Assembly (NCBI GenBank): GCA_019314185.1
Contig: JAFCZU010000377.1
Span: 1 to 5,275 of the forward strand
Reading direction: 5' to 3'
DNA from: Deltaproteobacteria bacterium
GTDB taxonomy: Bacteria > Desulfobacterota > Desulfobacteria > Desulfobacterales > ETH-SRB1
Length of the DNA stretch: 5,275 bases
Positions 38 to 4,704 of this stretch are shown here, one piece after another. The number at the start of each line of letters is the position of its first letter. Position 1 is the stretch's first letter. The notes beneath the pieces are model-generated. The model saw only the letters and a program-made list of their open reading frames with translations. It made no database searches and had not been told where the DNA came from. The position numbers and the translations under genes are program-made.

Positions 38-102
38 AATTTTATATATTCATCAAGTATAACTGCTTGAAATAATTGAGTTGAAATATCATATTATTTT
101 GA

Positions 103-115
103 ATGACATTGTCAT
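103..115. repeat. 13-bp palindrome at the point where hsdM breaks off
   Basis: ATGACA (103-108) and TGTCAT (110-115) are exact reverse complements around T109. The last family-like residue of HsdM, D303, is encoded at 111-113, inside this palindrome. Confidence 0.6.
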
Positions 116-947
116 AAACCTGCGGGGTGGAAAAATTGTGCAGATAGAGATTGACCAGAGAAAGCCGCACCATGTCCGGTGAAATGTCGTAGCCTACAAT
201 GTTTCGGCCCAGCCGTTTGCGGTTGTCTGGGGTGAGTTTGTCGCCTTTGAATTTACCGTTTTTCTGTATCTCCACCGTAGAAATGTCGGCGCTTTCCGTT
301 TCCGCGAAGGTTGGAATATATTCATCGGCTTTAAAGTTGGAAGAGTTTTCACGCCAAATATGCTTGTATGAGGAAATCAAAAATCCGGCTGTGCCACAGG
401 CAGGGTCAAGAATCCTGTTGGTCTTTTGTGGGTTCACTACCTCAACAATAAAGTCAATGATATGGCGGGGAGTGCGAAACTGTCCGGCGTCGCCCTGAGA
501 GCCGAGAATTGAAAGCAGGTATTCAAAGGCATTGCCCAGGTTTTCGCTGTTGCTATAACTGAACCCGTTAATTTCTTTTAAAAAAAGATTGAGTGTTTCA
601 GGGTCACGGTAGGGCAGATAAGCGTCCTTGAAAATGGTGCGGAAAAGTTCTGGTATCTGTTTTGATTTGGCAAAAGATGACAGGGCGCGGGTATAGATGT
701 CCCACCGTTCCAAACCGGAAAGTTCCCGGCTCATCAAACGGCCCCATGAAAATTCTTTCAGATCGCCAGTGAGGAATTGCGCCTTGCCACCAAGCTCTTC
801 ATTTTCTCTGTCCATGTCATCCATGAATTTGTAAATCAGAGCATTGGTGATCTGTTCAACCTGTGCCTTGGGATCTGGCACTTTCCCAACCAGAATCTGC
901 CGGGCTGAATTAATTCTCTGTTTGGTTTCCTTATCTAAGATGTATAT

Positions 948-954
948 CCTTCTT
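948..954 (-). promoter_or_regulatory. Shine-Dalgarno site for hsdM with no ATG, GTG or TTG behind it
   Basis: AAGAAGG (954 to 948) sits just after the hsdR stop and six bases before codon ATC at 941-939. The codon two before that, at 947-945, is ATA. Both codons are in the hsdM frame immediately before the conserved LDKETKQ start, and either is one substitution from ATG. This suggests that the real hsdM start was here and has mutated, or that a rare start codon is used. Confidence 0.5.
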
Positions 955-960
955 CTTATC

Positions 961-1625
961 TCAAGCGGCGTAAGTATTAAAAGGGATATAGTCCTTTGCG
1001 TATTCCGGGACAATATCACGCCAGCCGTTCAAAGCCCTGAATTCGTCTTTGGTAAAAGCCGGATAGAAATCCAACTCGCCATAATGTTTGTTATTGATGA
1101 TCTGCCGGAATTGTTCATCACTGACATACGCTTTCAAGTAATTCTTGATATAGGGCACATATTTGCTTTCCGGCTTGTGAATTGAGATAAATTTTTCGCA
1201 TTCTTCTTCCAGTTTTTCATCTTTGGTTTTGAATCCGGCAATAAAACCGAAAACTCGTTCCAAAAATTCACGCCATGTCAGTCTGCGGTCAAGATTTTCA
1301 CTTTTTCTTATCTTTTCAAGATTCAGATAAAGTTCCGGTTTGTTTTCGTATTTTTCCCTGAGAATGGAAATTGCTCTATCCCATTGTTCATTTTCAACGG
1401 CCTGCTTGACTTCCTCATCCTGCTGAATCGTTTCCTGCGCTTTTTCAAAAAATTCGCGGTCTATCCGCATTCCCTCAAGCCCGATCGGGGTTTCAGTCAG
1501 AGTTTTAACCTTGTCCGGGTCGAAAACCTCTATTTCGTCAACATCAATTCCTCCACCGCCTTCACCTTTCCCGTTTTGTAGGACTGGAAGTTGGAGAACT
1601 TCATCGTAATTGAACTTTTGGGGTT
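961..1625 (-). CDS. hsdR: HsdR fragment 3: C-terminal domain
   Basis: This is the C-terminal domain of EcoEI-like HsdR, which docks the motor onto the HsdM/HsdS core. The frame opens after a TAG at 1630-1632 and is protein-like from about 1612 (NYDEVLQLPVLQNGKGEGGGG). It runs through the first ATG at 1470 to a TGA at 961-963. The glycine-rich stretch and the following DVDEIEVFDPDKV segment lie before that ATG, so starting at 1470 would lose about 50 genuine residues. The end, WRDIVPEYAKDYIPFN, is a family-like HsdR tail, so the C terminus is probably complete. No convincing start or ribosome binding site exists for separate translation; the bases before 1470 (GAGGGA) touch the ATG too closely. 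Confidence 0.82.
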
Positions 1626-2719
1626 GGTTCTAACTTCGGCCACCTTACTTCGTGACTTGACTCAACATCCAAATAAATGCTATTAATTCGCTTGGTTGAG
1701 TTTTCTTGAACTGGTATTGTAAAATTAGTGTCAAAATATTCACAGTTGGCAAAAAAATCGAAAAACTTGAAATTTATTTTCTCGTGCTTGTGAATGATGT
1801 CATATTCGTCAGTGTATTCAAAGGTAAACTTCCGTGTTCCTCGGCCTTTGATCTGGATAAAGTCTGTTGGAGAAAATACCGGACGTATCAGGGCAAGGTT
1901 TAAAATATCCTGACAATCGTAGCCAGTAGTCATCATGCCAACGGTTACACAAACCCGTGTTTTACTTGATTTGTAGTTTTCCAGAAAACGGGTATGACCA
2001 TTTAAGTTGTTGTTGGCAAAATTGATAGTAAACCGCTGCGCGTCCGTTATTCTTGATGTCAATTGAACTGCAAAGTCAGAATTGTATTTATCCGGCCACA
2101 ACTGGAAAGCCATCTGGTTGAGTATTTGCGTTATTTTCGCAGCGTGGTTCTGGCTGACACAAAAAACAATACTTTTACCAATTTCACCACTGACAGGGTC
2201 TTTCAAAGCGTTTTCCAGAAATGTGCGGCAAAAAACGGTATTTGTTTTTTCAGAGTAAAACTTTTTTTCAAAATCCCGTCCGAAAAAAGTTTCTTCCACT
2301 TCCTTTCCATCTTCATCTGTTATGGTGACGGCATATCCCTTATCCGATAAAAGCTGGGTTGTTATTTCTGTTCTGGCATCGGCAACAACCGGGTTTATCA
2401 GATATTTACCCCGCACACCGTCAAGCAGGCTGTATCTGAAAGTAGGCTCGCCACTCTCACAGCCGAATGTACTGTAAGTATCAAGAAGCTGTCTTCTCTC
2501 CCAAGCGCGCGGGTCTTTTGAGGGGAGTTCTTCAGGGTCGATATTTTTCAAATAGTTTTTTGGTGTAGCGGTAAGACCGAGTTTGTAGCCGATAAAATAC
2601 TCGAAAACAGCGCGGGAGTTGCCGCCTATTGAACGATGGGATTCGTCAGAGATAAGTAGGTCAAAGTCAGTTGGGGAGAAAAGTTTTTTGTATTTGTTCT
2701 GTGAGGAAAGGCTTTGCAC
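1601..2719 (-). CDS. hsdR: HsdR fragment 2: DESH box to helicase motif VI
   Basis: This is the middle of the same protein in a shifted frame. Correct-frame sequence begins right at the A7 tract (RDDWKKAEIVISTVQSL), upstream of the GTG at 2719, so that GTG is an internal codon and not a natural start. Numbered from it, motif II is DESH at 25-28 and motif III is LGLTATP at 47-53. Further on come motif IV (SIVFCVSQNHA), motif V (TVGMMTTGYD) and motif VI (QIKGRGTRKF), the arginine-finger region of superfamily 2 helicases. The protein-like sequence runs to about KLEPTPK, then the frame breaks and ends at 1601. With fragments 1 and 3 it completes the motor. No ribosome binding site supports independent translation. 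Confidence 0.86.
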   Translation of the reverse strand: MQSLSSQNKYKKLFSPTDFDLLISDESHRSIGGNSRAVFEYFIGYKLGLTATPKNYLKNIDPEELPSKDPRAWERRQLLDTYSTFGCESGEPTFRYSLLDGVRGKYLINPVVADARTEITTQLLSDKGYAVTITDEDGKEVEETFFGRDFEKKFYSEKTNTVFCRTFLENALKDPVSGEIGKSIVFCVSQNHAAKITQILNQMAFQLWPDKYNSDFAVQLTSRITDAQRFTINFANNNLNGHTRFLENYKSSKTRVCVTVGMMTTGYDCQDILNLALIRPVFSPTDFIQIKGRGTRKFTFEYTDEYDIIHKHEKINFKFFDFFANCEYFDTNFTIPVQENSTKRINSIYLDVESSHEVRWPKLEPTPKVQLR

Positions 2720-3579
2720 GGTGGAAATGACAATTTCCGCCTTTTTCCAATCATCACGATTTTTTTGTATATGACTGTGGTGTAATCATTTTTCAGGTAA
2801 CGAACAAAATTTTTATATGCCTGATCTTCGAGTTCCAGCCTATCAACAAGAAATAGTATCCGCTTTGCATTCCCGGTTCTTAGAAACAACTTGATGGCGG
2901 CGGCGGAAATAAGGGTTTTCCCTGTTCCTGTGGCCATTTCAAAAAGAAACCTGTCTTTATCTTCCCTTGCCCATGCCTGTAAAGCGTGTATTGCCTTGAT
3001 CTGGCAAGGCCATAAGATTCGTAAACCTTCATCAAAAAGATATTTGTCTCGTGTTTCTTCATCCTGGTATCTTGGGTCATCCTTGAAATCCGGTTTTTGA
3101 GTAATAGCGATGTAATCATCTGAAACGATTTCATCAGCAAAGCGTTTGTTGTCGGGGGTAAAGGAAATCCGATGCCCTAAAGACTCCTGAGTCGGAAATT
3201 CGGTAATAATTTCGGGATTGCCACGCTCCAGGTCCAAGAAGTAATGCAGATTGCCGTTTGACAGGATGACAAACCTGACATTCAAGCTTCTTGCGTATGT
3301 CCTGGCCTGTTCCTTGCCGTCAAGGGGGTTCTTTTCTTCTTTTTTGGCTTCAAGAACAACAAGAGGAAAACCTCTTTCGTTCAGAAGCAGAAAATCAACA
3401 AATCCATTTTTTGAGGACTCAAAATCTTCACCAAACGCATCAACATCTTTTTCTTTAATTTTGATATTTGGCTCAAGCTGGATATTGGCAGGGCCGCTTT
3501 CATTATCGAAAAAACGCCACCCTGCTTCTTCAAGCAGTTTGTTAATTCTGATTCTGGCTTTTGCTTCTTTTTCTGCCAT
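2626..3579 (-). CDS. hsdR: HsdR fragment 1: nuclease domain and first helicase motifs
   Basis: As read, this frame gives 317 residues, of which about the first 273 are genuine HsdR. The PD-(D/E)XK nuclease core is visible: D62 in FVDFLLL, then E77-A78-K79 in VVLEAKK, then a Q91-x3-Y95 pair (EQARTY) typical of type I nucleases. The linker 167-190 contains the QIKA segment before the motor at 193-196. The Walker A motif ATGTGKT is at 216-222 and motif Ia (ILFLVDRLELEDQA) at 241-254. After YKK at 271-273 the frame leaves the gene at the A7 tract, and the last 44 or so residues are out-of-frame sequence ending at 2626. On its own this piece has the nuclease and ATP-binding loop but lacks the DEAD-type motif II, so it should not hydrolyse ATP productively. 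Confidence 0.88.
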   Translation of the reverse strand: MAEKEAKARIRINKLLEEAGWRFFDNESGPANIQLEPNIKIKEKDVDAFGEDFESSKNGFVDFLLLNERGFPLVVLEAKKEEKNPLDGKEQARTYARSLNVRFVILSNGNLHYFLDLERGNPEIITEFPTQESLGHRISFTPDNKRFADEIVSDDYIAITQKPDFKDDPRYQDEETRDKYLFDEGLRILWPCQIKAIHALQAWAREDKDRFLFEMATGTGKTLISAAAIKLFLRTGNAKRILFLVDRLELEDQAYKNFVRYLKNDYTTVIYKKIVMIGKRRKLSFPPCKAFPHRTNTKNFSPQLTLTYLSLTNPIVQ

Positions 3580-3870: not shown

Positions 3871-4704
3871 TCAACCCTCAAGTTTTTTTAATGATTTGTT
3901 TTCAAGCATTATTTTCATCTGCCGGATAGCAATCTGATTTAATCTTTTCAATCGTGTATCTGCATCAAGTCCTTCTTTGATAAATTCCGAATTGAAGCTC
4001 TCCAGATTGGATAAAACCACCAACTGCTCAATGGTTGCGGTATCACGGATATTGCCTTTTTCATCCGGTTGTTCTTTACGCCAGGATGAAGCTGTTTTAT
4101 TAAAAAGGGCAAGGTTTAACAAATCCGCTTCGTCCGCGTAAACAAAGCGTTGCTTTGACTTGGATAAATCATCAGGAATAAGATGTTCTTTGACAGCGTT
4201 GGTGTGTACCAGATAATTCACTTTGGCAAGTGTCATGGAAACATCCCATTCAAGCTGCTGCCTCCGTGTTTCATCAGATTTCAGTCGTTGGAATTCTTTA
4301 ATGAGATACAGTTTGAAAACCGGATTGATGGCTGAACAAAACTCAAAGGCAATATCTTTATGGGCATATGTTCCGCCGTATTTGCCGGAACGAACATACA
4401 TGCCGATGGCGCAGGTCTTTTTTATCCACTGTCCCGGACTCAAAACAAAACTTGGCAGTCCTGCTTGCATTTTAAAGTGGTCGAATTCGACCACTTTAAA
4501 ATCTGAATTGTACATTTGCTCCCATGTGCCTAAAAACTCCAGAGTCGAGCGGTTTCTTATCCAGTTTTTGATAATATCAGCGGCGCGGGAATCGCCCTTT
4601 TTTGCTTTCGCGATATCAGTGAGACAGATATAATCTTCATCATGTATTATTGTGAGTGAAATAGAGATATTTTTTACATTAATTATTTGCGTTTTAGGTC
4701 CCAT
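3871..4704 (-). CDS. KilA-N domain protein
   Basis: This is an intact 277-residue protein of the KilA-N domain family, named after the phage P1 KilA DNA-binding domain. The KilA-N domain covers roughly residues 22-140: DDE-like start with YICLTDIAK at 25-33, NWIRNRSTLEFLGTWE at 47-62, PSFVLSPGQWI at 84-94, GKYGGTYAHKDIAFEF at 107-122, and FKLYLIKEFQRLK at 130-142. The C-terminal part, roughly 150-270, is a conserved extension of this subfamily (LEWDV, YADEADLLNLALF, TIEQLVVLSNLES, RLNQIAI). Members often sit beside type I R-M genes; their function there is not established, and DNA binding is an inference from the domain. The start is ATG at 4704 with GGAGG at 4718-4714 and nine bases of spacing, the best ribosome binding site in the window. 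No frame breaks are seen. A perfect 34-bp palindrome lies inside the gene, coding for residues 69-78. Confidence 0.93.
   Translation of the reverse strand: MGPKTQIINVKNISISLTIIHDEDYICLTDIAKAKKGDSRAADIIKNWIRNRSTLEFLGTWEQMYNSDFKVVEFDHFKMQAGLPSFVLSPGQWIKKTCAIGMYVRSGKYGGTYAHKDIAFEFCSAINPVFKLYLIKEFQRLKSDETRRQQLEWDVSMTLAKVNYLVHTNAVKEHLIPDDLSKSKQRFVYADEADLLNLALFNKTASSWRKEQPDEKGNIRDTATIEQLVVLSNLESFNSEFIKEGLDADTRLKRLNQIAIRQMKIMLENKSLKKLEG
4469..4502. repeat. Perfect 34-bp palindrome inside the KilA-N gene
   Basis: The half-site ATTTTAAAGTGGTCGAA (4469-4485) is followed with no spacer by its exact reverse complement (4486-4502). The centre is GAATTC. The first flanking pair (C4468, C4503) does not match, so the arms are exactly 17 bases. 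The axis falls on a codon boundary, GAA|TTC, so each codon on one side is the reverse complement of its partner on the other; the peptide is FKVVEFDHFK (residues 69-78). In RNA it could form a long hairpin with a minimal loop; in DNA, a cruciform or a dimeric protein site. Confidence 0.97.

Follow-up and report, generated by a model that had tools for sequence, protein, structure and literature searches.

A coded palindrome inside PDC-S22 KilA-N genes covaries with a predicted protein helix and recurs in phage genomes

Introduction

The prophage defence protein BstA has a KilA-N-like domain and is carried by mobile elements (Owen et al. 2021, PMC8585504). According to the available text of that paper, the bstA gene contains aba, a variant-specific element that spares its own prophage and is reported to act as DNA and from a plasmid; aba covers 63 bp over the bstA start, of which 29 bp precede the gene and 34 bp form its beginning, and has direct CCCGCC repeats, and the working of BstA self-immunity is treated there as an open question. 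Here we describe a 34-bp perfect palindrome inside the gene of a KilA-N protein of PDC-S22, a candidate single-gene phage-defence family. The gene lies in a stretch of 5,275 nucleotides from Deltaproteobacteria bacterium (GenBank assembly GCA_019314185.1, contig JAFCZU010000377.1), referred to as the window. Across the family the palindrome carries a variable 6-bp code that covaries with one predicted helix of the protein, and sites of the same form occur in phages apart from the gene.

As far as the available text allows a comparison, this locus resembles BstA and aba in combining a KilA-N-type mobile-element protein with a short variant-specific DNA element in its own gene, and the cognate variation of site and protein expected of such self-immunity was found in the PDC-S22 family. 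In contrast, aba lies at the gene start and has direct repeats, whereas the PDC-S22 site is a palindrome at codons 68-79, and neither a recognition code nor phage-borne arrays are mentioned for BstA in the available part of that paper (PMC8585504). Homology between PDC-S22 and BstA was not detected by BLASTP (E value of 0.16, 24% identity over 42 residues), and hhalign gave no significant similarity (probability of 0.3%, E value of 0.2, 46 columns). The longest near-palindromes found in bstA had 8-nt arms. Fungal APSES/Mbp1-type domains, which belong to transcription factors, had at most 20% identity to the PDC-S22 protein. Controller (C) proteins of restriction-modification systems are small DNA-binding proteins of another fold that have their own palindromic operators in promoters; the window likewise has a DNA-binding protein with a palindrome next to a restriction system, but the coding sequence itself holds the PDC-S22 site, which is found in phages as well.

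Examination of the open-access literature, with subscription papers and outside preprints beyond its scope, gave no description of a coded palindromic site. PDC-S22 is defined as a profile model only, and the single paper found to name it gives co-occurrence in Streptococcus suis; the palindrome, the code and the phage copies are unmentioned in the available portion of its text.

The palindrome in the window

The palindrome was exact at 4469-4502, with two 17-nt arms, no spacer and no mismatches, and its centre fell on a codon boundary, as the initial annotation had reported. In the KilA-N gene, which runs on the minus strand, the codons flanking this centre are E73 (4488-4486) and F74 (4485-4483). 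The palindrome was the single match in a scan of the window for perfect palindromes with half-arms of at least 8 nt. The claim that chance was an unlikely origin was also borne out: when the window was replaced by 300 first-order Markov versions, the longest perfect half-arm reached 11 nt (mean, 6.3). The peptide itself supplies part of the symmetry because mid-codon bases pair automatically; with the peptide DFKVVEFDHFKM fixed and codons drawn from family usage, full symmetry was obtained in 32 of 200,000 random codings (1.6e-4). The placement of the palindrome between conserved KilA-N blocks proved imprecise. The Pfam KilA-N match covers residues 16-143, so the palindrome is inside the domain, and most of the 120 homologues among the matches listed also conserve the encoded peptide.

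Conservation of the site as DNA

Relatives were taken from genome contigs (the best 80 of 578) and from 44 viral contigs. The scan patterns used for finding the genes were degenerate at synonymous sites, and hence, by the tool's own description, codon conservation was no artefact of the search. The DNA at the palindrome codons was nearly fixed across phyla. GTC accounted for 94% of valines at V72 versus 13% elsewhere in the same genes, GAC for 97% versus 30% at D75, and CAC for 99% versus 35% at H76; divergence from the codon usage of the family averaged 0.87 inside the palindrome codons versus 0.068 outside. An amino acid change in one arm was accompanied by a change in the other, as in the arm pairs KVVEFDHF (GTGGTC..GACCAC), KPVEFDGF (CCCGTC..GACGGG) and HIEFDVF (CACATC..GATGTG), and co-changed variants of the peptide also included NYGEFAAI and NSLEFEGI.

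The site was summarized by the formula TTTTAA-N6-CGAATT/CG-N6-TTAA, in which the ends and the centre were nearly fixed and the 6-bp code N6 was variable. Code statistics were derived from 184 distinct genes, namely 183 and that of the window. The codes were identical on both arms in 126 of these genes, representing 21 codes, and the remainder differed by one base (42 genes), two bases (14 genes) or three bases (2 genes). With the helix and palindrome columns excluded from tree building, the tree placed 184 and 165 changes in the two arms, of which 136 coincided in branch and position and 126 were to the same base. The average co-change on this tree was 21.0 for pairs in register versus 2.4 for off-register pairs. 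Two streptococcal genes obtained later (L517 and L518) had perfectly matched codes that were new relative to the 62 gene codes known before, and broken PDC-S22 genes with intact palindromes were seen among hand-picked cases. A local accident of codon choice, for which the initial annotation had asked whether the same peptide occurs with freely varying synonymous codons, gave the opposite outcome when examined, with nearly fixed codons and co-changing arms; it is excluded by the codon conservation, the matching of the arms and the co-changes on the tree.

Covariation of the code with one predicted helix

Residues 41-50 formed a single helix in an AlphaFold2 model (mean predicted local distance difference test score, 89.8), and the domain resembled Mbp1 and the DNA complex of PCG2. 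Among protein pairs matched for overall identity, the columns that differed with the code were A125, A42, D43, K46, R40, T60, R52 and N47. Base by base, code position n3 was associated with A42, n4 with A42 and K46, n5 with D43 and K46, and n6 with N47. The top columns of a tree test, performed with no branch-length correction, were K46 (7e-15), D43 (8e-15) and A42 (6e-12), followed by V87, K96 and N47. Nearly all rows with codes ending in GGT had K at 46 together with D or Q at 43. Codes ending in CGT had D43 and mostly R46, those ending in CAT mostly had Q46, combined with Y, T, I, N or L around 43, and those ending in TGG and CGG had D47. The co-evolution of the code with residues 42, 43, 46 and 47 of one predicted helix indicates that the PDC-S22 protein very probably binds the palindrome in its own gene.

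An mRNA hairpin acting on translation, as put forward in the initial annotation, or on mRNA decay fits these data less well and is very unlikely. The sense strand would fold into a long stem, and the G.T pairs at pair positions 4 (62/184) and 15 (47/184) would be tolerable in RNA. At the code positions, however, G.T mismatches (7) were rarer than A.C (27), with 42 others and hence no preference for G.U; the AATT of the would-be loop was nearly fixed, also at noncoding phage sites, and the covariation with a protein helix is left unexplained by an RNA stem.

Sites in phages apart from the gene

Viral contigs yielded at least 120 stretches in a pattern scan and 118 with a looser pattern, versus 0 and 3 in controls with a scrambled centre (AATT changed to TTAA). 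Among 81 sites (80 loci among the matches listed), 62 were outside any detectable PDC-S22 gene, mostly with short or no reading frames. A PDC-S22 match was absent in 48 of the 50 viral records tested (of 61 loci), and one of the two matches was a 24-residue piece. When the arms were set to AGTGGT and the centre was left free, 26 sites were obtained, 24 of them outside genes; the centres were all AATT-like though noncoding. Named phages with sites were Streptococcus phages Javan527, Javan465, Javan53 and Javan637, Lactobacillus phage LR1, Staphylococcus phages DW2, SP197 and PMBT8, and Bacteroides phage C3_41T2LP; the 17 phage records in which PDC-S22 was matched include none of these nine.

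The location of the site varied widely among phage genomes. Sites of streptococcal phages were directly before the scaffold gene, where related phages carried ACTGGT/AGGGGT, CCGTGT/AGGGGT or ACTGGT/ACCAGT; two staphylococcal phage sites were at the start of the dUTPase gene, and two phage sites were beside integrase genes. Streptococcus phage Javan163 (L520, ~1198-1229) had lost one half-site at the same place as in Javan465. An intergenic stretch of Flavobacterium phage FCL-2 (L285:3501-3527) had AGTGGT arms around a changed centre, AAAATT, and matches similar to this stretch were present in 78 Flavobacterium phage records.

These locations bear on two other explanations. The phage sites could be targets through which PDC-S22 protein, for example from a satellite or prophage, represses phage genes, the copy in its own gene then serving for feedback. 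The positions before the scaffold gene and at the dUTPase gene start are consistent with this explanation, as is the occurrence of PDC-S22 beside integrase in satellites, and the half-site loss in Javan163 would fit escape. We consider it improbable: targets would be expected to be lost, yet the phages keep the centre and arms, use valid half-codes, diversify the sites and stack them in tandem, and the positions differ widely. A recombination site, suggested in the initial annotation, or an integration site would agree with the occurrence of palindromes in mobile elements and with the two sites beside integrase genes. Nothing was found in support of such a site beyond this: the reading frame around the palindrome is intact in 184 distinct genes, and other phage sites are far from integrases. 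Like an accident of codon choice, this explanation has only a vanishingly small probability.

Half-codes were then compared with those of the genes. The 296 distinct sites comprised 154 within genes, 15 within pieces of genes and 127 outside, and 182 of the 254 outside half-codes were found among the 59 gene half-codes (4096 possible). In the looser-pattern set, 73 of 118 half-codes were known gene codes (62 known), whereas 2000 column shuffles averaged 14.4 and reached 25 at most. The halves were equal in 9 of the 59 looser-pattern sites versus 1.3 expected; two different known codes were present in 17 sites, one known code in 21 and none in 12. Tandem sites with different codes, ~24 bp apart, were detected in L228, L363, L371, L394, L504/L511 (one genome) and L390.

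Proposed role of the site

We propose that a presumed dimer of the PDC-S22 KilA-N protein recognizes a pair of TTTTAA-N6-CGAATT half-sites and that helix 41-50 would read the inner bases of the 6-bp code. The site would label the element carrying the gene as self, such that DNA with the cognate site is spared or the protein is switched off, and may be kept inside the gene because of this labelling. By analogy, a built-in DNA self-recognition (antidote) site functioning like the aba of BstA is a fairly probable role, although less certain than binding. Phages could gain from such sites as antidotes, a counter-defence by copying, and might, by combining half-codes, withstand two or more protein variants; the phage copies are perhaps a way to escape the defence. 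Whether all of this amounts to a DNA password system, in which each PDC-S22 gene has its own 6-bp-coded antidote site, site and helix evolve together, and hybrid or tandem "keyrings" allow phages and other mobile DNA to pass several variants, we judge to be evenly balanced.

If true, a large uncharacterised defence family (more than 8000 proteins scoring as relatives among the matches listed) would have a readable protein-DNA code, allowing phage sites to be matched to defence genes from sequence alone. There would also be a direct handle on the workings of BstA-type self-immunity, and a coding sequence would have been shaped by a DNA site that its encoded protein reads.

Several observations weigh against this explanation. 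Searching of the open-access literature gave no binding, defence or immunity experiment for PDC-S22. Many viral records are fragments, so a gene that was not found differs from a gene that is absent, and some of the outside sites are gene remnants (L182, L004 and one site of L073). Only one half-code of the pair matched a protein at most hybrid sites. Host and phage codes were compared in a few streptococci: S. suis and S. uberis genes shared ACTGGT with one half of some phage sites, and S. canis and S. agalactiae genes carried other codes. Code positions n1 and n2 had no clear partner in helix 41-50, and V87 and K96, which scored high in the tree test, are outside this helix. Lastly, L029 and L068 had an operator-like copy of the same code just before the gene.

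Sites were also examined in bacterial genomes, where the pattern was matched in 23 of 28 carrier genomes. Those outside the sought gene copy were followed in L157-L162. The extra site was part of a second PDC-S22 gene in L159 and L160 and of a decayed one in L162, was intergenic in L157, and was a single upstream copy in L158/L068. An upstream site in L028, L073 and L074 had a code other than that of the gene itself, and the sites of L004 and one of L073 looked like remnants of another PDC-S22 gene. Other long palindromes, with centres CCGGCGTCGG and TTGACGTCAA, were observed ~128 bp (L034) and ~73 bp (L099) upstream of the PDC-S22 gene.

The initial annotation had suggested a binding site for the protein itself with a role in autoregulation. 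Binding was strongly supported by the covariation of site and helix; autoregulation, the main rival to the antidote role, is possible and leaves the phage-borne sites unexplained. The protein would bind the palindrome ~200 bp inside its own gene and block transcription, and this negative feedback would travel with the gene, with the copies in phages as side effects or decoys. The same covariation between helix and code would be expected, the upstream copies in L029 and L068 are in accord with it, and PHROG labels relatives as transcriptional regulators. Such same-code copies were, however, present in 2 of 125 cases (124 loci and the window), the upstream codes differed in L028, L073 and L074, and hybrid-code phage sites far from any PDC-S22 gene are given no role. 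Autoregulation is a rather unlikely reason for the site.

The gene and its genomic settings

The features of the window are listed in Table 1. The match of the protein to PF04383 (KilA-N) had a value of 1.9e-20 and a score of 73.1 bits versus a gathering cut-off of 23.8. Full-length membership in PDC-S22 (PADLOC PDLC04962) was indicated by an E value of 7.6e-124 over residues 4-275 and profile positions 4-274 of 281, and the satellite, phage and Methanosarcina relatives tested likewise were full-length members.

Table 1. Coordinates of the palindrome, its code and the surrounding gene in the window
Feature	Position	Strand	Remarks
34-bp perfect palindrome	4469..4502		Sense order ATTTTAA-AGTGGT-CGAATTCG-ACCACT-TTAAAAT; code AGTGGT on both arms; codons 68-79
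Six-base code, first half-site (AGTGGT)	4490..4495	-	Codon 70 third base to codon 72 second base
Six-base code, second half-site	4476..4481	-	ACCACT in sense, complement of the first half-site code
Predicted recognition helix, codons 41-50	4555..4584	-	AlphaFold2 helix (model residues 40-49); A42, D43, K46 and N47 covary with the code
KilA-N protein, 277 aa, PADLOC PDC-S22	3871..4704 (gene 4704-3871)	-	Pfam PF04383, PADLOC profile

The PDC-S22 gene was solitary in many settings. It was located between repressor and integrase genes in a streptococcal satellite, near Qat genes on a Xenorhabdus plasmid and near dinD in one E. coli, and it was carried by Staphylococcus phage EW. In the window it precedes type I restriction genes on the minus strand (42-3579), which comprise two HsdR pieces (2626-3579 and 1601-2719) and an HsdM piece (42-1019); their sequences are divided among several frames, which suggests either broken genes or sequencing errors. 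On Aeromonas salmonicida plasmid pS44-1 (L128, 1-6825), a PDC-S22 gene was close to macrolide and aminoglycoside resistance genes and IS26 copies. Truncated PDC-S22 frames of ~117-122 aa in L495 and L496 retained the DNA-binding domain and the palindrome, and PHROG 32500 (76 positions) matched residues 6-77 only.
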